The position numbers were made by a program, and so were the translations under genes. Below the pieces are notes generated by a model. The model was not told the DNA's origin, ran no database searches, and saw nothing but the letters and a program-made list of their open reading frames with translations. Source: Candidatus Gastranaerophilales bacterium (GTDB lineage: Bacteria; Cyanobacteriota; Vampirovibrionia; Gastranaerophilales; Gastranaerophilaceae). From it: DNA of 64,000 bases. How positions within the stretch are numbered: position 1 is the first letter of the stretch; each line of letters begins with the position of its first letter. The stretch is from assembly GCA_944326475.1 (NCBI GenBank), contig CALVEC010000005.1, positions 62,001-126,000 of the forward strand. Reading direction: 5' to 3'. This document shows positions 4,010 through 17,170 of this stretch, piece by piece.

Positions 4010-5029
4010 ATGTTTAAAAAAATCACATTATTTTTTATTTTAATATCGGCGCCGCTGCCTTCACTCGCATATCAAATCCGGACATACTCACCGGTACAAA
4101 CAATTGCTCCATATTACGGACCTGTCGTAAATCCTTCGATGATGAGACACAACCGGCGATTCTTAAGGCGTCCGGCAAGAATTGTGCCGGTATCGCCTAT
4201 TACCCGCACACCGATTGCAAGAACCGTTGTACCTCCGCTTTTGCCGCCATCGGCAGCGTATCTTCCGTCCGTGACAACATCTTCGCAAAAAACTGTAATA
4301 ACCCCGAGAACACAGACAATCGCGCCGTTGGAACCGGTTAAGGATGATACGGTATTTGAAGCAGAGACACCCCAAATAACAACAAACAACGCTGAAAATT
4401 ATCCCAAAATAACCGCACTCGAAAACACTATTTTTCGCAAAACCTATGAAAAACAAGACATTTATACAAGGCTGAAACGGCTCGAGAAAAAACTTTTCAG
4501 ATGTACTTTTGACAATATGGCACTCTCGGACAGAATGGAGAACATTCTGAACAATGTAGACCCTGCAGTAGTATACGATATTAATCAGCGTGACCTTGCA
4601 AAAATCGAAACAAAAATTCTGGGCAGAAGCTTTGAAGGCGAAAGCACGGACGAAAGAATAACCAGACTTGAAAAAGAAATGCTCGGAGCAATGCAGGGCG
4701 GCAATCTGAAACAGCGTTACGAAACGGTAAAAAGCGCAGCGCGTCATTACAACGCTTTTCCGGCATATACAGCCTCAACCCCTCAAAATAACTACACAAT
4801 GTACAACAACTACCGCAAACCGCGGCGCAACATACTGAGTTTTCTGTTTGATATGATGTCCACAGGGTTTGGCGCAGGACAGATGACGGGTTACACACCG
4901 CCGGTATTTTCACCATACGACAACTTTCAAGACAGCAGCGGGATTCAAGACTATTATATGGGAAACCGCGGCGGATATTACAACAACAGAAACATGGGAA
5001 ACGGATCTACTGTAAGAATTTTAGACTAA
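4010..5029 (+). CDS. Secreted protein with repeated LE-x-RLxRLE helical motifs
   Basis: Function unknown. A clear signal peptide (MFKKITLFFILISAPLPSLA) precedes a Pro/Thr/Arg-rich region (~25-125). Then come repeated helical segments of the pattern LE..IF.KTYEK...RLKRLEKKLF (residues ~140-165) and IETKILGRSFEGES..ERITRLEKEML (~200-227). The C-terminal ~90 residues are rich in Asn, Tyr, Gly and Pro. From memory, LE.kvfg..y....RL.RLE repeats recur in secreted proteins of cyanobacteria and Melainabacteria; no enzymatic motif is visible. AGAGAGGA precedes the ATG. It converges on the giant FliD-like gene with stop codons overlapping by four bases, so it may be a surface partner, but that is only positional inference. 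Confidence 0.7.
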   Translation: MFKKITLFFILISAPLPSLAYQIRTYSPVQTIAPYYGPVVNPSMMRHNRRFLRRPARIVPVSPITRTPIARTVVPPLLPPSAAYLPSVTTSSQKTVITPRTQTIAPLEPVKDDTVFEAETPQITTNNAENYPKITALENTIFRKTYEKQDIYTRLKRLEKKLFRCTFDNMALSDRMENILNNVDPAVVYDINQRDLAKIETKILGRSFEGESTDERITRLEKEMLGAMQGGNLKQRYETVKSAARHYNAFPAYTASTPQNNYTMYNNYRKPRRNILSFLFDMMSTGFGAGQMTGYTPPVFSPYDNFQDSSGIQDYYMGNRGGYYNNRNMGNGSTVRILD

Positions 5030-8000
5030 ACAATCGGATTAAAGCCGGGGTTATTCTGGTTAATAATTACACGCGTCAAAGATTCGTTATACTGCCTGTT
5101 GAGTTTTGTAATAAGGTCATTTATTTCAGAATACTGCTCCTGCAGCTTCGACAAGAAGTCCATAAGCTCTTTCTGGCTCTGTGCAAGAGCTTCATCCCCT
5201 CCATAGAGAGAAAGTTCGCTTTCAAAACGGGCAAGCTGCCCTTTGCTTATGGAAAGCTCGTCTTTGAGAGCGTTACGCTGGCTTGTAAGCGTTCTTATTG
5301 AGGAATTAAAATAGCCGCTTACAGGCTTGAGGGAATCATCGAGAGTGTCTTTAACTCTGACAAAAGCCCCGGCAACAGTGTGGTCAATCGGATCTCCGGT
5401 GTCGTCACCGATAAGAAGCTCCGAAACATTTTGCGGATTTGAAAGAAAAGCGCTGTAGAACTCATCGCGATTTACAGTGATTGAGACTCTGCCGGCGGGT
5501 GATGCTGTAGAACCGGACATATTCACTACAATACCAATATCCGCAAGCGCTTCCTGAATATCTGTTCTGTTGCCTATGTCAGAAGTAAAGCAATCTCTGA
5601 TTCGTCCGAGCAGTGCAGTAAATTCAGCATCTCCGACAATATTTGTTGATTGAGAGAGAGTCATTGAAACATTAAATTTTCCGACAAAATCAAGCAGCTT
5701 CATGTAGGTCTCATCTAGCGAGAGACTGCCTATGTTTATCGTTCCCGTGCCTGTTTCTTTTATGGTAATTGTAATAGCGGCAGCAGCATCGTCAGCAGTG
5801 ATTTTTCCGTTTTTATCAAGCTTAATAACATTTGATTCCGTTTCGTAATCCGTGCCGTTCAGATTAAATATTGCATTGTAGCCGTTTTGCTGGGTTGCAA
5901 TATTCATTGCATTTCCGTTTGTAAATCCTACAATATCCGTTAGATTTGAGGAACCGGCTTCAACTTGTATGCGGGCGTTTGTTTTTTTTGCATTTGAGGT
6001 AAGCACGATTCTGTTGTCAATAAACTCTGCTCTAACGCCGTTTTCGTCCGTCGTCAGAAATGCACCGTTGATTTTGTTGACAAGATCGGCTATAGTATCG
6101 GTCTCAGAGACAGTTATGACTGTATTATTAATTTTGAAGTTTCCTGCTGCAACGCCGAGAGTGCTCAACAGGACGTTGTCATTGCTGACCTGCAGCCTGT
6201 CACTTTTTATAACAGTACTCGTTGCGTCGGTGCCGCTAACTGTTTGCGCTCCCTGAGACAGCGTACCGCCTGAGGTGAAGCCGATTTTGTTTGTAAAATC
6301 ACTTGTACCTTTAGTTATAGCAATACCTCCGTCTGTCTCGGAAGAATCTCGTGTCAGAACCATTTTGCCGGTTGTTGCGTCGATACCGGCAGTTATACCA
6401 ATGCCGGAAGCTGTTATTGCTGCAGCAATCTCCTGCACGGTATCGCCGGAAGAAATCTCTATCCTTCTTGTATCCGTGATATTACCGTTTTTGTCAGTAA
6501 GTGAGATAAAGAAGTCGCCGGAAGTGTACCCGAGAAGCGACGCATTCTGGGCTGTTTTTGAAGATGTCAAGGTCGAGAGAACACCGTTTTGAGCCGATTG
6601 TATCTGTGCTCCGCTCTGCGTAAAACCTGTAACCTCTGCAAAATTAGAAGTTCCGTCTTTTAAAGATATTTCATAAGCACCCGCAAGTTTAGCCTTTAAT
6701 ACAAGATTTGTTCCGTAGGGATCAACTTCTGCAGTGATTCCGAGATCTGAATTTGTGATTTGAGCGGCAATTTCCGCAAGCGACTCGCCGCCTGCAAGAT
6801 TAAATGTGTGAGTTTTAACTGTACCGTCAGGATTTTTTACGGTTATTTCAAAATCGCCGGCACTAAAGGTTATTCCGCTGTTCAACCCGGTTCTTGAACC
6901 TGTAAGAGTTGAATAAACATCCTGCTGTCCGGTCACACCGACTGCTTCACCGCCGATTGTACCGGCAGTAAGCCCGAGAATACGCGCATAGTCTGTATCT
7001 CCGTCATCAATACGAATTGTTGCGCCGTTTTCGATTGTTGTTGTTATTTCTATTTGTCCGGAACTGTTCAAAGACGCACGATAATCACTCTGTGTGCTCG
7101 AATTGATAAAATCAAGCACGTCTTGTATAGTGGTTACTCCTTTTTCAACGTTTACATTAAGCGTTCTGTGACCCGCTGCTGAAATGGAGAAGCTTCCCGC
7201 GGTCATATTATTAAACGACTGTCCGGCACTCAATCCCGACACAGAGCCTGTGATTTTCGACAGTCCGTAAGAGCCGTTGTCTGTAACACCGGCAGCAGAC
7301 CAGGTGTTGCCTGTCAACCCGGTTAATTTGTGGAAATCAGATGTTCCGGACACTATTAAATCTGCGCTGTTTTGACCGGTTGTTTTGATATAAAGCGCAC
7401 CGTTTTCATCCATACCGGCTTCAAAATTTCCATTCTGATTAATTTTATCAATGACATCCTGAATCCGGTCTGTAGCAGAAACATTAACGGTTTCTGTTAC
7501 AGAACCTGCCGTAAGTATGAGTGTACCGGCTTGCATACCGCCAAAAACGTGATCTGCATCAAGGTTCTGCATAGAACCTGTAAGCATTGATTTACCGGAG
7601 GTAAGGGTTGTTGCCGTAAAATCAGCGTCAGTTGTAGCGCCTGTAGTCGACATACCAGCCATAGTAACAAAGCCGGAGGAGTCATTTTGGAAAGTAATTT
7701 CAGACGCGTATTCACCGTTTAATTCAATGTGTATACGACCTTTTCCGGTTGTATCGTCCACATCGACCTTAAATACCATAGCACTTGTGTCCAGACGGTT
7801 TGAACCGGTAACATCAGAGGCTTGATAGCCCGATTCTGCATTGATGATTGCCTGTTTCATCTTGTTTAAGATAGTGTCAACACTGTCCGATGAAGAAACA
7901 TTCACAGTGTAAGAACGCTTAGGTCTGTACACAATATCTCCGTTCGGCGTCATTGTAGTTGTTTCACCCAGAGTAAAAGTAAACGAGCCGTTTTTCAAGC

Positions 8001-11000
8001 CTGTAAATACTGTACTGCCCTTCATTCCGTCAATACCGGTTCCGCCGGAACCGCCTGCACCATAAAAGACAAACAATCCGTGGTCGCCAACTTCCGTCTG
8101 TACAGAAGCGCCTTCTGTTTTTGCTGCACCGACAAGTCCGACTCTGGTTGTGAAATCAGACTCAGACACTATAATACTTTGAGCATTTTGACTGTTTGCC
8201 TGAATAAAGAATCTGCCGTTACTGTCTATGCTTGCAGTATATTTTCCGCCGGACTGAATGTTTATGTTATTTATAATTTCATTAAGGCTCTGACCGTTTG
8301 TTACAGATATTGTGACACTGCTTGAACCGTCGCTTATTGTGAAGGTTGACGAATTTAAACCGCCCAAAACATGTTCGCCGTGCAGCCCGTCTACAGAACC
8401 TGTAAGTTTAAGGTAACCGTGGCTTTCTTCGGTAAAAGTTCCCATATGGGTAGTCGTTTCACTGGCAGTCGACAGTCCGAGACGTTTCACAAGCTCGCTG
8501 CCTCTTGCGTCAAGCCCGCTAAAAGTAATCTGTTCAGCTTTGTTGCCGGCAATACTTATCTTAAACTGATGGGTAGAATTGTCAAAAGTAATGTTGAAGC
8601 CCTCAATACCTGCGTTTATGGCAGAAGTTTTTATAGCGTTAACAATATCATTGACAGTCATATTGCGACCGACTTCGACATCAAAGCTTTTCGCTGCAAC
8701 ATTTATTGTATTATTTGTTTTGTCGCTGAGAGTGATACGGAAAGAGCCGTCACCGTCTCCGGCTATTGAGTCATCTATTGTAAGGTCGGAAGAACCCAGT
8801 AGTCCGTCTATTGCAGCACTTGTATATTCCATTGTACCGAATGAGCCGAGCGTCAATGTGCCTTCTCCGAGTTCTTCCGATTCTCCGGACAAGCCCAGTA
8901 TTCTTGCGAAGTTAGACTCTGAAACGGTTACTGCGGCAGATGAGTCGGTTAGAGATTTTATCCAGAATCTGCCGTCTTCAATTCCTGCGTCGTATTCACC
9001 GGTGTCTTTGATTTTTTGAATTATTGAATCAAGGCTCTCATCGTCTGTGACAGTTATGTTTACCGACGCTCCGCCGCCGGAGATTGTCACGGTTTCTTGT
9101 GCCGTATTAAGACCGCCCTGAATGTTGCCCAAAACGTGAGTTGCGTGAAGGTTATCGGTTGAGCCTTTTAGTTTTGACAAACCATCCGAGAGCTTTGTAC
9201 TTGTGAAATTGGCGTCGTAGACCACATCATCTTGTGCCAGACCCGCTCTTTGCACAAATCCCGAGGTATCATCGGTAAACGAAAGTTCGTATAAAGCATT
9301 GTCTGTTGCCGTTATACTTATTCTGTTGTTTTTAGCGTCAAAAACAGCGTTAATACTGGAATTAAGAGCATTTATTCTGTCAAGAACAGTCTGCACGGTA
9401 TCTCCGGCATGGACTTCAATCCATTTTGCGCCGTCTGTGGTATTTATGTTAAATCCGCCGTCTGTTATGCCGGAGAGAGCAGTGTTCGCAGTTAAGCCGT
9501 TAATTGAACTGCCGGTGAAGCTAAAAGAGCCGTGCGAACCGGTTTCTTCATATAGTTTTACAAAATAGTCCGTACCGTTGTTTGTAATGCCCGGTTCTGT
9601 CGGTGCACCCGGGAACACTGGCGGTGTATACCCCTCAGGCTCTGTAGCAATACCTGTCAAGGAGGCAAAATTTCCGGAAAGGTCTGTTATAACAAGTTTA
9701 TCCTGAGTTCGGGATTCGACAGCGGAGGTTATGACAATACGTCCGTCAGAATCGAGTCTGTAGGTGAGTTTATCTTCTGTTAAAGGCAGCATATTCAAGT
9801 CGGGAGCATCTGTGTTGAAATCAAAAAGTCCTGTGCCGTCTTTTTGGTTTGCAAGCTCAACGAGCCTGTTCATAATGGTTTCTATACTCTCGTTGCTATT
9901 GTAATGTACATCTACGTTTTTTCCGTTTATGGACACTCTGAATGTCCCGCCTTGCAAGCTTCCGACAACGCTTGTGTCTTTATAGCCGCCATTGGCACTT
10001 GTAACTGTACTTTCACCGACTTTATCCGGCATGGGGCGTTCAATAGTGCCGGTGAAAGACGTATCCTGCCACGAAGTTGAGGCGTCGGTTAAACCGTAAT
10101 ACTGTGCAAATCCGCTTGTATCCTGGATTCTTACTGCACCCAGCTGTCCTCCGTATGTAATCTGTATTTTTCCGTCAGCAGTAAACGAGGCAGTATACCC
10201 ATTGATTTTATTGATTTCCACACCATTAGGAGTAATGATATCTTTAGCAATCATGTCGTTTATTTTTTTCATAACGGCGTCAAGTCCGTCTGTTGCAAGA
10301 ATTTCTACATTACCTACAGCCACATACCCGTCTGCTGTCTGGGTTACAAAGGTAAGCATTCCGTCCTTTTGACCGCTGAAAGGTCCGATATTGGTCTTGC
10401 CGACAGCAAGTGTTCCGTCGGTAATCATTCCGTTAACACTGACAGAGCCTGTAATACTGCCGTTGTTGTAGATATAAACATCTTTGGGACTGTCAATTTC
10501 TTCGTTTACAGAACGCTGAGCAAGCTCGGTCGGATTTTCTCCCAGTCCATAGAAATATACAAACGCACTGCTTCCGCTGACTCTAAACTCATCCATGCCT
10601 GCACCGTAAGTGATTTCAATTCTGTCGTTCACAATCTGCGCAGAAATCGTCGTATCCCAGTTGACGTTTGACACATCAGAGGGCGGCGCGTAGTTCACTG
10701 TCATACTGTTAATCTTGTTTAAAACCGTCTGTAAATCATCGTTTGCACCTACAGTAACCGAGGCAATTTTCGTACTGCCGTTGTAAAAATCGATAGTACC
10801 CTCCTGCCCGAAAATTGCGTTTCCGTTCACTTCTGACAGGTCTGTCGCACCCGTCAGTACGCCGTTTCTATCGTAAGTTACAATGTCTTTTGAAGGGGTG
10901 ATAGCCGTGTCATAGTCTTCGTATTGAGAGGTTCCTGATGCCGTAAGCCCGTAGTATGAAGCAAAAGCGCTGTCGCCTTTTACCGAAAAATCCGATATAG

Positions 11001-14000
11001 CGCCACAGTAGTTGATTTTTATTCTGCCGCTTGAATCAATTACAGCGTTGAGTTTGTAGCTGACATTTTCACCCGGAAGGTCGTCAGGAACATCAAACGT
11101 AAGCGTTGTTGAGTTGATTTTGTTCAAAACAGCCTGCAAATTGTCTCCGGCATCAACTTTTACGAATCCGATTTTTTCCGTGCCCGAGTAGAACTCTATA
11201 AAGCCTGCCTGATTGGCAATTGCGCTGCCGTTCGAGTCGTAAACATTGACAGAACCGGTAAGAGAACCATCTGTATAAACATATTTATTATTAATAATTG
11301 AAACACCGCCAGGGGTATTTGTTGCCATTGCAACCGTGTAGTTTCCGAAGCCTGTGAGTCTTGCCATATCTCCTGTTGCAGAGACAGTGTGGCTGTTGCC
11401 GTAGGTTTTAATACTTATTTTACCGGTTGTTTGATCAAAAGTTATTTCCGGTTTACTAATGACATATCCGTCTTTGGAAAGCTCCTCACCGTAGGCGTCT
11501 GCCTGTGTTTGCAGCTCGGATAGAACCTGTGACAAGGTTTTTCCCTGTCCGTTCACGGTAATTGTCCGGGTGCCGTTTGAGCCGTTTTCAAAAGATATAC
11601 TTATTGTGCCGTTAACAAAAGTTGTATCTGCTGTAAGTTTGTTTTTATTTTGGGTCAAGTATTCAAAGGTGCCGTTCTCAACGGTTGTTGTCGGCGCAAA
11701 GTTTTGCGCAACGCCCGATGTATAAGCAGAAAAGCCGGTTACACGGGCAAAATCTCCGTCCGCCGTTATAGAGTGGTTGGTATAATTTGTTTTTATAACA
11801 ATCTGCTCGTTCACATACTCGGCATAAACATAGTTTTTACTGTAACCGTCAACGCTGTCAACGCTCGGACCGGACTGACCCGCCGCATTTATTTCCGCGA
11901 CAACTTCTTCAACTGTTTTTCCTGTTGTATCTATTGTAAATGAAGCATTTTGACCGTATCCGTCATCATGAGTTATTGTTATACTGCCGCCGACAAATGT
12001 CGTGTCTTTATTCAACCCCATCTCACTTTTTGTCAGGAAGGAGTGTGTGCCGTCAGAAACTGTGTAGGAACCGTCCACATAAGTCGCTGAACCGACTGAA
12101 TAGCTTGCAAATCCGGTTACTCTTGCAAAATCACCTGTTGCCTGTATATCCAGCGGATTGTCTACTGTGTTTTCAAGCATTTTTATTCTGAAATAGCCTG
12201 TTTCAAGGTCTGCAGTAACACCGGCAAGTCCTAAATTATTTACCTCGTTAACAATCTGTTCGATAGTTTTATTGGTTGTGTTTATGGTGTTGCCGCCAAT
12301 TTGCAGCGTACCGCTAATTATTGTAATGTCACCCGTAACTTCGTTGCCGCCGGAGAGCGTCGGGTGGAGTTCATAAGTAGAGTTACCGCCGGTAACTGTC
12401 GCAAAATCAAGAGTATAGTTGGCAATACCGGCAATACGACCGAAATCACTGCCCTGAACGCCTATACTTATGGAGTCAGAACCGTAAGAGGTCGACTTTA
12501 TGGTGAATCTCCCGTTTGAAGGGTCGATATAAGCCTCAAGTTCAAGTCCTAGTTCTTGTGCACGGGCTGTAATTTGCTCGGCAACGTTTTGAACCGTACC
12601 GGTTATATCAACATCAAAAGTCGTAGTAACAGGGGTGTTCCAACTGTGAACGTCATTTACTAAAGTTATGGTAACTTTTCCGTCAGTAACCTGTTCCGTG
12701 CCTTTTAAGTTGTCAACAACACCTGAAATATAGGAATGCGTCTGTCCTGTTGTTGTGCCGGTATTGTCGTCGCCATAGGCAATATAAGCACTCAAGCCGG
12801 TAACTGCGCCAAAATCTCCGGTGCCTGATACAGAGAATGAAATGGTGTCAAATTCGCTTGCAGTATTTGCATTTGTCTGTTCAAGCACGAATCTTCCGTC
12901 TGCATCCAGGTATGCACGTATCTGTGTTGTAGATGTTTCAGCGTTTATTGCATTTATAGCGTCTTCAATCGTGCCGGAGAGGGTGATAGTTTTTACGGAG
13001 GAGACAGCGTTGTTTGTGCCGCCTTCCGTATTTACACCGGTAGTCGTAGAGGTAATTATACCCTGCAATGTGAGTTGAACACTGCCTGTGAGCTGTGAAT
13101 CGTATTTAAGTCCGGTGACACCGCCCGTGACTTTTGCAGCCTGTTTTTCGCGTACCGTATAAGAACCGTCTGTCGTAGTGTGAGTACCTATACCGATTAC
13201 TCGTCCGAAGTCGCTGTTCGTCATGTCGACTGATATATTGTAATCGCCGGCAATATCTGATTTAAACTCAAATTTTCCATTTGTAATTGAAGCTGTTACA
13301 GAAATTCCGGCAGCAGCAAGCTGTTGATTAATTGATGTAATGGCGTCAGCAAGTGTTCCGTCAGAAACCCGAATATCTACGGACATATTTATGCCGGCAG
13401 AATTTTGGGCATCTGCCTTTGTTATTGTAAATTTAAAGGTACTTTCAAGAACTTCATTAACCGGATCAACATCTCTTGAACCGGTCAATGTAGTGTGTGA
13501 CTGACCTACAACATTTCCTGTGTCAGCCTGTCCGATTGTAGTGTAATCGCCAAACCCTGCCACACGGGCAAAGTCCCCGTCACCAGAGACCGCAAAATTT
13601 ATCGTATCGCCTTCTCCTGCAGTGTTTGCGTCAGTCTGGCGCAGTACAAACTGTCCGTTTTCAAGCAAAGCTTCAATTTTGGTAACGTGTTTAAGGTCGT
13701 TAATGCTGTCTATTGCATCCTGGACAGAGATATAGCCGTTGCCGTCTTTATCGGTAAATGTTATGGTTTGAGCAACAGAGGCAAGTGCACCCGAGCCTTG
13801 CTCAGTATTTACGCCGGTGTAAGAGTTGCTTCTTGACATCCATAATTTAATTGAATTTGTTCCGATGAGTTCGTCGTAAGAGTTCAGACCGCTTGTTGCG
13901 CCTACGTATTTAGCAGGGTCTTTTCTCAGGTGTGAAATACTGCCGTCCAGTGTTGTACTGCTAGCCATGCCTGCAACCCGCCCGAAATCGCCCGTAACTC

Positions 14001-16968
14001 CGTTTACGGTATCAACACTGAGGGTTATTCTAAACGGACCCGAGTCGCGTGAGACAAACTGGAGTTTATCGTTAACAATTTCCGCTTTTACGTACCAGTT
14101 TTCACTGTTAATCGTATTCATTGCGTCTTCAAGTGTTCCGTCTTTTAAAAGGAAGGTCTTTTCAACATTTACGCCGGCGTCATTTACAAAACCAAGGGTT
14201 ATTTGCGATTCTGTAATTTCTGTTTCTTTTGAAACAGTGTTTTGTCCTACAAGTTTGCTGTAGGTGTAGTTTGTGTGTTCGCCGTTTGAGGGAGCCGCAC
14301 CGACGGTGTAAGAGCCTAATCCCGTAACACGACCAAAGTCGCCGACTCCTATAATTTTAAACGATATACTCGGGGTTGTATCGGAGACTGCACGCAAAAC
14401 AAACTGTCCGTCATCGTTTAAAAGCGCCTCAACTCCGGTTATATCCTTGTTTGTGTTAATAGCAAGCAAGGCAGCGCCCACACTGGCGCCAAGGTCAATT
14501 ATAACGGAGCCGAACTGAATTTTTGAACCGGCAAGTACCTGAGAATATTCGTCCAATCCGGTTATTGCCCCTGTAACTGTAGCGTGTTCCTTCTCAACAT
14601 GAGAATTTGTACCTGTTACGGTTGTGTAAGTTCCGGTACCTACAACCCGCCCAAAATCGCCCGACTGAACAGCAAAGCTAATACCGGCAGAACCGGCGTT
14701 TGTGTTTCGCAATACAAACTTTCCGTTTCCGTCAATAAACGCTTCAACACCGGTCGCAGCAGAGTTTGCGTTTATTGTAGAGATAGCGCTTGAAATGGTA
14801 CCGCTGAGGTTTATATCTTTACCGTTAATAGTCACAACGCTGTCTAAAATCCTATCGGAATTGCTCACTGTTTTTGTTGCAGTAAAGGTCGTCTTAGAGC
14901 TGCCGTATTTTTCCTCCTGACCGGCAGAAACCTGGTATCCGATAATACCTGTCGTTTGCCCGAAATTCCCGGAAATATCAGTCACAGAAATAGGCAGAGA
15001 ACCGTTCCTCATCTCTGTAAATACGAGTCTGTCGTTTTCAATTGAAGCAGTAATCTGGGTTATGTCGGATTTTGCGTTAATTTGATTGATAGCGCTCTGG
15101 AGCGTGCCTGCACTAATATCTATCAGTGTTCCGTTAAGATTAATGGTTGAATCCTCAACCATAGTAGAATTATCCACCTTTTCAGAACCGGTTAGTGTGG
15201 TTTTTGAGCCGAGTTGACCGATTGTCGCTGCTGCAGCAGCCGAACTTTCGGTTGTAAAGCCGGCTATCGCACCAAAATTACTCGTACCGCCTTCGACAAA
15301 AAGCCCCTCACTGCCGGTCATTTTGTTTCTGAGTACAACATGTCCGTTGTCTGCGTCAAACTCGGCAATAACACCGGTTTGGTCTGTGTAGTCGTTGATT
15401 TTTTCAATAGCTGCGGCAAGAGTGCCTGCATCAAGCTCTATAGTGGTATCGTTTATTTTAAAAGAACCTGCCGTAACCTGAACATTTGAGGGGTTTACAA
15501 TATTTTTTATACCTGTTAACGTCGTAAAATACTGCGCGTCAAGTTCGGGATTTAAAACGCCGGTTGAGGTCATTTTGTCGGTGAGTCCGACTTTGCTTGT
15601 AAAATCTGAGTTTCCGGACTCGACTGTTATACTGTAGCCGGCGCCTTTTACGTTATTTTTTATAACAAATCTGTCATTTTCAACAGCAGCAGTAATGTCC
15701 AATGAAGATGCATTAATTTTAGCAATAACATCATCAATCGTATCTCCGGCGGCAACATTTATTACATCCTGTGCTGTTACTCCGTTTAATGTTTTTCTGA
15801 TTACAAACGAACCTTCTTCAAATCCGCCGTTTATAGCCGCTATTGAGTTACTTCCGGAAAGTACCTGAACAGAGCCGTCCGAGCCGAGAACAAGATTGTC
15901 CTCTATCATTTTTCCGCCCGTTGTAAATCCGATAACGTTTGTAAAATTACTTGAGCCTTTGGCTATCTCTATTAAAACGTTACCGGTTCTGTTTGCAACA
16001 AGGGTTATTTTATTTTCGTCTAAAATTGCTCCTACGCCGTATTTTTCATCTCCGTTAATCTCTGTAAAAAGGTCATTTATTGTAGTGTTTGAGTCGATTG
16101 TAAGTTCGTTCCCGTTTATGGAAAAAGTGCCTGTTGAAATAGTAAGTCCTGTCTTTTCACCAAAATTTGTACTCTGGTCGTGCAAATTCATAGACTTTAC
16201 ACCCTTGGAGTCAATATATAACTGTCCGTTTTCGATTCCTGCGCCATATCCGTCAGCCTGCAGTGCATTTATGACGTCGCCAAGTGTAGTATTGCTGTTA
16301 ACGGAAATTGAGGTGTTGCCGATGTTAAAGACCCCGCTTTTGATTCCGAGCTGTGACATCGTCATGGACTCGTCAAGGTCGTTTCTTGTCGTTGTAACCC
16401 GTGTACCGCTGTAATTTCCGGCGTAAAGGTCTGTGATTTTTGTATTAAGGCTGATGTTTTCACCTTTCAAAATATCGCTTATCGCTTTTGTTGCAGTGGC
16501 AACTTGCGTAACCTTATAATCAATCTTTTGGGTATTAACACTGTTGCCGTTAAGTACAACGTCAACAACATCAGGGTTTGTGTTTGTAAAATCGAGAACA
16601 CCGGAGGTCGTAGTTGAGTCTTTTACACTCTTTAAAAAGTCGTCTAAGGATGTAACCGTCTTTGAATACTGGTTTTTCAAAGAATTTAGAGTGGTAATTT
16701 TCGAGTTGTGCGTGTTTATTTGAGAACTTATTGTATTTATTGTGGACTGAAGGTTAATAATTTGCGAGTTATAGTAGCTGTTGAGCTGGTAAATCTCAGA
16801 GCCTGTCGTATAAGCGCCCGAGGCAACCTGATTGAACATATCTTCAATTGCAGCTTTTTGCTGATACAAGCTGCCCAAAGACTGCTGCTTTTGAGTCAGC
16901 ACATTATTAATCATTGCGCTGATTGAGGAGTTTCTTGCAGTAGTGAGTCCGTTAATTATTATACTCAT
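5026..16968 (-). CDS. fliD: Giant FliD-like flagellar cap/hook-associated protein, 3,980 aa
   Basis: FliD (HAP2) normally has ~450-700 residues and forms the cap under which flagellin polymerises. Here one open frame encodes 3,980. The N-terminus (1-~190) resembles FliD: coiled-coil segments, then DFTNTNPDVVDVVLNG and KVTQVATATKA, matching the family's 'Y.V.V.QLA' region. The C-terminus (~3,690-3,980) also fits FliD: LGRIRDCFTSDIG, LADIGIVVNMSG, FYSAFLSNPQNVSELL and a final coiled coil. Between them lie about 29 tandem domains. It is rich in Asn, Thr, Gly and Ser, with very few cysteines (I noticed two), typical of exported flagellar proteins. The chosen ATG overlaps a small upstream frame. 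No interruption is seen, so it is not a broken gene. It might instead be a FliD-derived adhesin. FliD-family membership is firm; the role is inferred. Confidence 0.8.
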   Translation of the reverse strand: MSIIINGLTTARNSSISAMINNVLTQKQQSLGSLYQQKAAIEDMFNQVASGAYTTGSEIYQLNSYYNSQIINLQSTINTISSQINTHNSKITTLNSLKNQYSKTVTSLDDFLKSVKDSTTTSGVLDFTNTNPDVVDVVLNGNSVNTQKIDYKVTQVATATKAISDILKGENISLNTKITDLYAGNYSGTRVTTTRNDLDESMTMSQLGIKSGVFNIGNTSISVNSNTTLGDVINALQADGYGAGIENGQLYIDSKGVKSMNLHDQSTNFGEKTGLTISTGTFSINGNELTIDSNTTINDLFTEINGDEKYGVGAILDENKITLVANRTGNVLIEIAKGSSNFTNVIGFTTGGKMIEDNLVLGSDGSVQVLSGSNSIAAINGGFEEGSFVIRKTLNGVTAQDVINVAAGDTIDDVIAKINASSLDITAAVENDRFVIKNNVKGAGYSITVESGNSDFTSKVGLTDKMTSTGVLNPELDAQYFTTLTGIKNIVNPSNVQVTAGSFKINDTTIELDAGTLAAAIEKINDYTDQTGVIAEFDADNGHVVLRNKMTGSEGLFVEGGTSNFGAIAGFTTESSAAAAATIGQLGSKTTLTGSEKVDNSTMVEDSTINLNGTLIDISAGTLQSAINQINAKSDITQITASIENDRLVFTEMRNGSLPISVTDISGNFGQTTGIIGYQVSAGQEEKYGSSKTTFTATKTVSNSDRILDSVVTINGKDINLSGTISSAISTINANSAATGVEAFIDGNGKFVLRNTNAGSAGISFAVQSGDFGRVVGTGTYTTVTGTNSHVEKEHATVTGAITGLDEYSQVLAGSKIQFGSVIIDLGASVGAALLAINTNKDITGVEALLNDDGQFVLRAVSDTTPSISFKIIGVGDFGRVTGLGSYTVGAAPSNGEHTNYTYSKLVGQNTVSKETEITESQITLGFVNDAGVNVEKTFLLKDGTLEDAMNTINSENWYVKAEIVNDKLQFVSRDSGPFRITLSVDTVNGVTGDFGRVAGMASSTTLDGSISHLRKDPAKYVGATSGLNSYDELIGTNSIKLWMSRSNSYTGVNTEQGSGALASVAQTITFTDKDGNGYISVQDAIDSINDLKHVTKIEALLENGQFVLRQTDANTAGEGDTINFAVSGDGDFARVAGFGDYTTIGQADTGNVVGQSHTTLTGSRDVDPVNEVLESTFKFTITKADAQNSAGINMSVDIRVSDGTLADAITSINQQLAAAGISVTASITNGKFEFKSDIAGDYNISVDMTNSDFGRVIGIGTHTTTDGSYTVREKQAAKVTGGVTGLKYDSQLTGSVQLTLQGIITSTTTGVNTEGGTNNAVSSVKTITLSGTIEDAINAINAETSTTQIRAYLDADGRFVLEQTNANTASEFDTISFSVSGTGDFGAVTGLSAYIAYGDDNTGTTTGQTHSYISGVVDNLKGTEQVTDGKVTITLVNDVHSWNTPVTTTFDVDITGTVQNVAEQITARAQELGLELEAYIDPSNGRFTIKSTSYGSDSISIGVQGSDFGRIAGIANYTLDFATVTGGNSTYELHPTLSGGNEVTGDITIISGTLQIGGNTINTTNKTIEQIVNEVNNLGLAGVTADLETGYFRIKMLENTVDNPLDIQATGDFARVTGFASYSVGSATYVDGSYTVSDGTHSFLTKSEMGLNKDTTFVGGSITITHDDGYGQNASFTIDTTGKTVEEVVAEINAAGQSGPSVDSVDGYSKNYVYAEYVNEQIVIKTNYTNHSITADGDFARVTGFSAYTSGVAQNFAPTTTVENGTFEYLTQNKNKLTADTTFVNGTISISFENGSNGTRTITVNGQGKTLSQVLSELQTQADAYGEELSKDGYVISKPEITFDQTTGKISIKTYGNSHTVSATGDMARLTGFGNYTVAMATNTPGGVSIINNKYVYTDGSLTGSVNVYDSNGSAIANQAGFIEFYSGTEKIGFVKVDAGDNLQAVLNKINSTTLTFDVPDDLPGENVSYKLNAVIDSSGRIKINYCGAISDFSVKGDSAFASYYGLTASGTSQYEDYDTAITPSKDIVTYDRNGVLTGATDLSEVNGNAIFGQEGTIDFYNGSTKIASVTVGANDDLQTVLNKINSMTVNYAPPSDVSNVNWDTTISAQIVNDRIEITYGAGMDEFRVSGSSAFVYFYGLGENPTELAQRSVNEEIDSPKDVYIYNNGSITGSVSVNGMITDGTLAVGKTNIGPFSGQKDGMLTFVTQTADGYVAVGNVEILATDGLDAVMKKINDMIAKDIITPNGVEINKINGYTASFTADGKIQITYGGQLGAVRIQDTSGFAQYYGLTDASTSWQDTSFTGTIERPMPDKVGESTVTSANGGYKDTSVVGSLQGGTFRVSINGKNVDVHYNSNESIETIMNRLVELANQKDGTGLFDFNTDAPDLNMLPLTEDKLTYRLDSDGRIVITSAVESRTQDKLVITDLSGNFASLTGIATEPEGYTPPVFPGAPTEPGITNNGTDYFVKLYEETGSHGSFSFTGSSINGLTANTALSGITDGGFNINTTDGAKWIEVHAGDTVQTVLDRINALNSSINAVFDAKNNRISITATDNALYELSFTDDTSGFVQRAGLAQDDVVYDANFTSTKLSDGLSKLKGSTDNLHATHVLGNIQGGLNTAQETVTISGGGASVNITVTDDESLDSIIQKIKDTGEYDAGIEDGRFWIKSLTDSSAAVTVSESNFARILGLSGESEELGEGTLTLGSFGTMEYTSAAIDGLLGSSDLTIDDSIAGDGDGSFRITLSDKTNNTINVAAKSFDVEVGRNMTVNDIVNAIKTSAINAGIEGFNITFDNSTHQFKISIAGNKAEQITFSGLDARGSELVKRLGLSTASETTTHMGTFTEESHGYLKLTGSVDGLHGEHVLGGLNSSTFTISDGSSSVTISVTNGQSLNEIINNINIQSGGKYTASIDSNGRFFIQANSQNAQSIIVSESDFTTRVGLVGAAKTEGASVQTEVGDHGLFVFYGAGGSGGTGIDGMKGSTVFTGLKNGSFTFTLGETTTMTPNGDIVYRPKRSYTVNVSSSDSVDTILNKMKQAIINAESGYQASDVTGSNRLDTSAMVFKVDVDDTTGKGRIHIELNGEYASEITFQNDSSGFVTMAGMSTTGATTDADFTATTLTSGKSMLTGSMQNLDADHVFGGMQAGTLILTAGSVTETVNVSATDRIQDVIDKINQNGNFEAGMDENGALYIKTTGQNSADLIVSGTSDFHKLTGLTGNTWSAAGVTDNGSYGLSKITGSVSGLSAGQSFNNMTAGSFSISAAGHRTLNVNVEKGVTTIQDVLDFINSSTQSDYRASLNSSGQIEITTTIENGATIRIDDGDTDYARILGLTAGTIGGEAVGVTGQQDVYSTLTGSRTGLNSGITFSAGDFEITVKNPDGTVKTHTFNLAGGESLAEIAAQITNSDLGITAEVDPYGTNLVLKAKLAGAYEISLKDGTSNFAEVTGFTQSGAQIQSAQNGVLSTLTSSKTAQNASLLGYTSGDFFISLTDKNGNITDTRRIEISSGDTVQEIAAAITASGIGITAGIDATTGKMVLTRDSSETDGGIAITKGTSDFTNKIGFTSGGTLSQGAQTVSGTDATSTVIKSDRLQVSNDNVLLSTLGVAAGNFKINNTVITVSETDTIADLVNKINGAFLTTDENGVRAEFIDNRIVLTSNAKKTNARIQVEAGSSNLTDIVGFTNGNAMNIATQQNGYNAIFNLNGTDYETESNVIKLDKNGKITADDAAAAITITIKETGTGTINIGSLSLDETYMKLLDFVGKFNVSMTLSQSTNIVGDAEFTALLGRIRDCFTSDIGNRTDIQEALADIGIVVNMSGSTASPAGRVSITVNRDEFYSAFLSNPQNVSELLIGDDTGDPIDHTVAGAFVRVKDTLDDSLKPVSGYFNSSIRTLTSQRNALKDELSISKGQLARFESELSLYGGDEALAQSQKELMDFLSKLQEQYSEINDLITKLNRQYNESLTRVIINQNNPGFNPIV
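5930..16160 (-). repeat. About 29 tandem flagellin-IN-like domains inside the giant FliD gene
   Basis: Residues ~270-3,680 repeat a domain of about 120-125 residues (~365 bp). Each unit has a hydrophobic strand (F.IN...I), a [T/S]-[I/L]-..-[V/I]-[I/L]..IN helix, a strand pair ending G.F.[L/I], and a closing motif ..DFGRV.G...YT or a variant. I counted 29 closing motifs by eye. Three subtypes cluster: DF(G/A)RV-x-G..xYT (~770-1,870), FxxYYGL (~2,010-2,290), and more divergent units at both ends. This pattern suggests local duplication followed by drift. The units resemble the flagellin hook IN motif (PF07196). Confidence 0.85.
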
Positions 16969-17075: not shown

Positions 17076-17141
17076 TTTTGCAAATGAATTTAAATCCATA
17101 CGGACCTGTTTATTTTTAATCAACTCTACTACGACATAAAC

Positions 17142-17170
17142 AGTATATCATATTGACATCATCCGTGCAA
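17142..17170 (-). promoter_or_regulatory. Sigma-70-type extended -10 promoter for the giant fliD gene
   Basis: On the minus strand TTGCAC (17165-17170) and TATACT (17142-17147) are separated by exactly 17 bp, with TGA directly before the -10 hexamer (extended -10). The predicted start near 17135 gives a leader of about 165 bases. No sigma-28 GCCGATAT element is visible in this 260-bp gap, unlike the site at 36086. The rest of 16969-17228 holds nothing but the small leader frame. Confidence 0.6.

Follow-up and report, generated by a model that had tools for sequence, protein, structure and literature searches.

A giant FliD-family paralogue with 29 tandem head domains in a Candidatus Gastranaerophilales genome, and its putative display at the flagellar tip

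We report that gene A, found on a 64,000-nucleotide stretch of DNA from a Candidatus Gastranaerophilales MAG (G000; the whole stretch is the window referred to below), encodes a 3,980-residue protein that we infer from homology to be a giant paralogue of the FliD family, a kinship that suggests, at one remove, a cap function. In the reading we prefer, to which we give a probability of about 0.55, the protein would be exported by the flagellum and assembled at its tip through its D0-D1 ends, where it would display a chain of domains, likeliest as an adhesin. The features, in window coordinates, are:

5026–16968, minus strand: gene A, encoding a giant FliD-like protein of 3,980 aa and ~418 kDa (intact frame; orthologues in three further species)
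16399–16968, minus strand: N-terminal D0/D1-like half, residues 1–190, mostly helical in a weak model (hhalign; structure model)
5920–16395, minus strand: array of 29 Flagellin_IN-type units, residues 192–3683 (Pfam Flagellin_IN; repeat HMM; structure model)
5098–5880, minus strand: FliD_C region, comprising the second half of D1 and D0, residues 3697–3957 (PF07195; hhalign; FliD profile)
17132–17149, minus strand: promoter-like element GATATACTGTTTATGTCG, common to gene A and the giant gene B (exact-match search; conservation)

The frame runs for 3,980 codons from an ATG start with zero internal stops, in agreement with the 11.9-kb open frame of 3,980 residues described in the earlier note. 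Pfam Flagellin_IN (PF07196) matches 13 stretches of the protein (E = 9e-51), and a repeat HMM trained on protein A resolves 29 units across residues 192–3683, with E-values from 3e-12 to 4e-22; the same note's estimate of about 29 tandem flagellin-IN-like domains is right. Head domains of this Flagellin_IN type are one of the features by which a FliD is recognized. The last 852 residues, modelled with AlphaFold2, form separate beta-alpha-beta units with poorly predicted linkers between them (pLDDT 69, pTM 0.28), and at such a pTM the model does not fix how the units are arranged. The best fold matches in the PDB are FliD proteins of the Salmonella, Campylobacter and E. coli caps; the global TM-scores are low, as is expected for a flexible chain. 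Additionally, fold comparison of the protein A models returns weak matches to adhesin repeats.

A second feature of FliD proteins, the FliD_C region, is likewise present. It is missed when hmmscan is run on the whole of protein A and recovered when the ends are scanned alone, the last 310 residues giving 34.2 bits against PF07195 (cut-off 25.4, E = 2e-8). A profile of normal FliD C-termini matches the window at 5122–5952 (E = 2.9e-23), and hhalign pairs the C-terminus with the normal FliDs of the order at 99.3% (E = 2.5e-20). When the sequences of solved structures were searched with the C-terminal profile, only coiled-coil matches came back, and fold comparison was needed. From these comparisons we can conclude that the C-terminal half is, at the level of sequence, a FliD homologue. 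Pfam FliD_N (PF02465) reaches 12.5 bits on protein A, under its cut-off of 24.8, and hhalign of the N-terminus against normal FliD N-termini gives 97.7% (E = 1.6e-12), with residues 73–185 aligned and 1–72 unaligned. The N-terminal model is built of helices (pLDDT 63, pTM below 0.3), and its best PDB match is H. pylori FliD (E = 1.9e-6). Profile alignment supports a remote homology of this half to FliD. The FliD match proposed for both ends in the earlier note therefore stands in Pfam terms at the C-terminus, whereas at the N-terminus it fails by FliD_N and is supported, as remote homology, by hhalign only. Two other identities were rejected: a flagellin would carry Flagellin_N and Flagellin_C ends, and both (PF00669, PF00700) are absent from Pfam scans of the whole protein and of its ends; for FlgL (HAP3), NF005187 gives 20.8 bits against a cut-off of 337, over short stretches inside the array.

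Gene A is found in four species, with products of 3,980, 3,981, 3,980 and 3,980 aa that are 81–92% identical and align with 0–1 gap columns (four MAGs), and the repeat HMM counts 29 units in all four orthologues. Nonsynonymous divergence is 5–12% and synonymous sites are saturated, a saturation that makes the dN/dS of 0.03–0.06 a rough value only. Judged from these alignments, gene A is evidently kept under purifying selection, and its 29-unit arrangement is evidently old, fixed and free of recent duplication. It is hardly credible that such a gene is an assembly artefact or a decaying pseudogene. Misassembly is possible in long repeats, and paralogue C, described below, is reduced in G000 to a remnant, a 358-aa ORF with FliD_C (L013, G000:C11:63652-64728, plus strand) that is preceded by the same neighbour as the 6,203-aa gene in G002. 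However, gene A has the same length and stays in register and in frame in four MAGs, which rules out an assembly artefact; its units are distinguishable from each other because their mean pairwise identity is only ~24%, and nonsynonymous change is far lower than the saturated synonymous change. The rise in G+C noted earlier over the gene is real (mostly 42–46%, against mostly 32–42% in the adjoining kilobases), but the normal fliD of G000 stands at 42.6% and the orthologues at 41–43%, and we therefore dropped the idea of a foreign origin. The ends of gene A and of a 339-aa plus-strand ORF with no Pfam match (window 4010–5029) share four bases.

Melainabacteria, including the Gastranaerophilales order, are flagellated (PMC3787301). 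The genome of gene A provides the setting that a FliD requires, as it encodes flagellin and the flagellar export gate (23 Flagellin_N matches, FlhA, FliP); gene A itself lies outside a flagellar gene cluster. The second, normal-sized fliD that the earlier note advised looking for is present in the same genome (473 aa, G000:C1:34927-36348). Protein A has few cysteines and is without a hydrophobic N-terminal signal, as is the normal FliD.

By homology, gene A does not stand alone: it belongs with other giant paralogues, namely B, C, D and a separate g25/g56 clade. Family f1 contains giant FliD paralogues, about 1,300 to 11,051 aa long, in genera g1, g6, g25, g30 and g56, and these reach ~20 times the length of a normal FliD; the named genomes with relatives are Candidatus Gastranaerophilales MAGs, and in one other bacterium a D-type giant precedes fliD. 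In the same genus as A, paralogue B measures 7,267, 8,903, 11,051 or 3,012 aa depending on the species (up to 1.15 MDa per subunit in G002), and paralogue C measures 6,203 aa in G002. Genus g6 has further giants, among them paralogue D (5,922 aa in G008), and wider searches of genera g25, g30 and g56 returned frames of about 1,300 to 6,600 aa. A and B are divergent neighbours in three species and lie on different contigs in G000, and D is directly upstream of the normal fliD in three genomes. In one profile-search sample, 21 of 21 genomes with a giant (a frame of at least 1,000 aa) also hold a FliD of 475–639 aa, and the matching frames outside family f1 measure 504–799 aa; a few genomes in a wider search list a giant alone. 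Protein A coexists with normal FliD rather than substituting for it. A small C-terminal tree places the A–D giants in one clade (support 1.0) and those of g25/g56 in a second, together with a normal FliD (0.92), and because these clades are separate there seem to have been at least two origins of giants in family f1. The giant FliD set is apparently undescribed, as no earlier description was found in the literature searched, which took in few of the subscription journals. G011 encodes a 787-aa FliD_C-like protein (L072, G011:C13:28415-30778, plus strand; 22.9 bits, below cut-off), with a normal FliD elsewhere, that is possibly a mid-size form; a 1,076-aa frame weakly matching FliD_C in G011 proved to be unrelated.

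The element GATATACTGTTTATGTCG is present in exactly two copies in the 2.14 Mb genome, one lying 164 bases upstream of A, the other 111 bases upstream of B. It is kept upstream of both genes in three further species, and D too is preceded by a variant. In front of B it overlaps the inverted repeat TATATCA-ATG-TGATATA, and both contain TATACT. We read GATATACTGTTTATGTCG as a shared, regulated, putative promoter of A and B.

Protein A could be FliD-derived and exported by the flagellum, and then be released or laid on the filament or cell surface, a secreted giant adhesin or matrix protein with no part in a cap, and the presence of a normal FliD, which could do all the capping, and the divergence of the A–D clade N-terminus from FliD_N would accord with this. 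We nevertheless consider it unlikely: across A–D neither polymerisation half has been lost and both are conserved, and the fetched ends of the g25/g56 giants score 57–65 bits with the canonical Pfam FliD_N and 124–130 bits with FliD_C; a released protein would have no need of the fully canonical ends found in the g25 giants.

A different export route would be a second, apparently non-flagellar type III system with protein A as its substrate. G000 encodes two full FlhA-type and two FliP-type proteins (L104 on C20, L103 on C9, L113 on C33, L114 on C3), and a FliF-like and an ATPase gene lie beside the second FlhA. The second FlhA type is also present in sampled genomes that are without the flagellar one, and so has the appearance of a second, widespread type III system. 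Such a route for the giants is very improbable, since the sampled genomes with this system that are without flagellar FlhA and FliD have no giants; where the second FlhA type occurs alone, with no normal FliD, weak matches are frames of ~265–409 aa. Membership of the giants in the second system was tested on this distribution and is unsupported. Protein A is homologous to FliD, coexists with normal FliD and is absent from the sampled second-FlhA-only genomes, which together argue that it is a flagellar protein. The giant-bearing G170 and G294 show no match to the flagellar-type FlhA, which the incompleteness of these MAGs may explain.

Composition offers a further link to the flagellum. In B, C and D the IN units are interrupted by stretches of about 300–2,800 aa. 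Those of C contain GLUG motifs by Pfam (E = 1e-36), and those of B and D have a GLUG-type pattern by eye, the scanned piece of D falling under the Pfam Glug threshold. GLUG is also found in one flagellin of the genome of paralogue C (E = 2e-13), and the motif occurs in G000 flagellins as well. That these motifs are common to shaft and cap-type proteins fits a role on the flagellum exterior.

Several flagellins are themselves unusual. A 1,435-aa flagellin of G000 (L074, G000:C6:99789-104096, minus strand) has many GNGNDT-type repeats between its flagellin ends and is convergent with giant B, and a 3,244-aa flagellin-like frame in G019 (L082, G019:C28:13787-23521, minus strand), well over the usual flagellin size, has similar repeats. 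Other G000 flagellins are split (L076, L077, L078, L079 and L081, on C16, C2, C4 and C14): an N-terminal ORF of ~165–173 aa ends near STLSGGGG, and a second ORF of 445–585 aa with GLUG and Flagellin_C follows or overlaps it, intact sisters being 603–667 aa long. Insertion of a dispersed repeat is suspected in the split genes.

Under the tip-assembly reading, protein A would be exported unfolded via the flagellar type III apparatus, and its D0-D1 ends would mediate assembly at the distal tip, in a mixed cap, in an alternative cap, or on some flagella only. The array would be displayed outside the tip as a flexible beaded loop that leaves the cap and returns to it. Because the array sits between the D1 halves, and a single subunit has to bring these together, a loop is more probable than a free arm; the long radial arm per subunit envisaged in the earlier note is unlikely on topology, as both ends of the array would have to come back to the cap. 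By our own estimate, at an assumed ~4 nm per domain, the loop would have a contour of ~115 nm and a reach of ~55 nm. Normal caps, by comparison, are pentamers measuring about 13 nm in width and 17 nm in length (PMC12221982). Adhesion to gut surfaces is the likeliest role for the array, with GLUG-type stretches added in B, C and D, and since no binding domain was identified in protein A this role would rest on analogy; mucin binding by FliD is known from P. aeruginosa (PMC8306008). A shield or decoy function at the tip, directed against host immunity or flagellum-specific phages in place of adhesion, seems improbable: the range of B, from 3,012 to 11,051 aa across species, is what would be expected of an exposed, changing surface, but the fixed length and strong conservation of A are an ill fit with diversifying selection. 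More broadly, and more tentatively than for protein A itself, it is possible that family f1 has evolved, at least twice, giant-FliD tips with looped chains of tens of domains, which would be an undescribed long-range tip organelle.

A lineage in which paralogues of 3,000–11,000 residues supplement a normal FliD would demonstrate that the flagellar tip is open to remodelling as a long organelle for adhesion or protection. The giant FliDs would be, to our knowledge, the largest type III export substrates, and passage of an 11,051-residue chain through a ~2-nm-wide channel would stretch the known limits of this export. The comparative set, in which A is fixed, B and C are variable and there are at least two origins, allows the role of cap head domains to be tested. 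Furthermore, the giants would bear on how uncultured, gut-dwelling relatives of cyanobacteria establish themselves in their hosts.

Three known systems invite comparison. Type I secretion giant repeat adhesins (the ice-binding adhesin, LapA-like proteins) resemble protein A in being long strings of similar beta domains expected to extend far from the cell; they differ in their domains, their ends and presumably their export route, and no adhesin domain was identified in A. Giant flagellins, of over 1,000 aa (PMC6248924), share with A an enlarged outer region between the conserved polymerisation ends of a flagellar protein. They build the filament, whereas A is FliD-derived and is without a Flagellin_N or Flagellin_C match. 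An ordinary FliD has a few hundred residues and two to four head domains. The closest counterpart is FliD/HAP2 itself (Salmonella, Campylobacter, H. pylori), which A resembles in C-terminal homology, probable remote N-terminal homology, a Flagellin_IN-type head and fold matches to FliD caps. H. pylori FliD has the extra head domains D4 and D5 (PMC8306008), and in place of the usual D2-D3 head protein A has 29 serial head domains, in a chain of 3,980 aa that exists beside the normal 473-aa FliD of the same genome.
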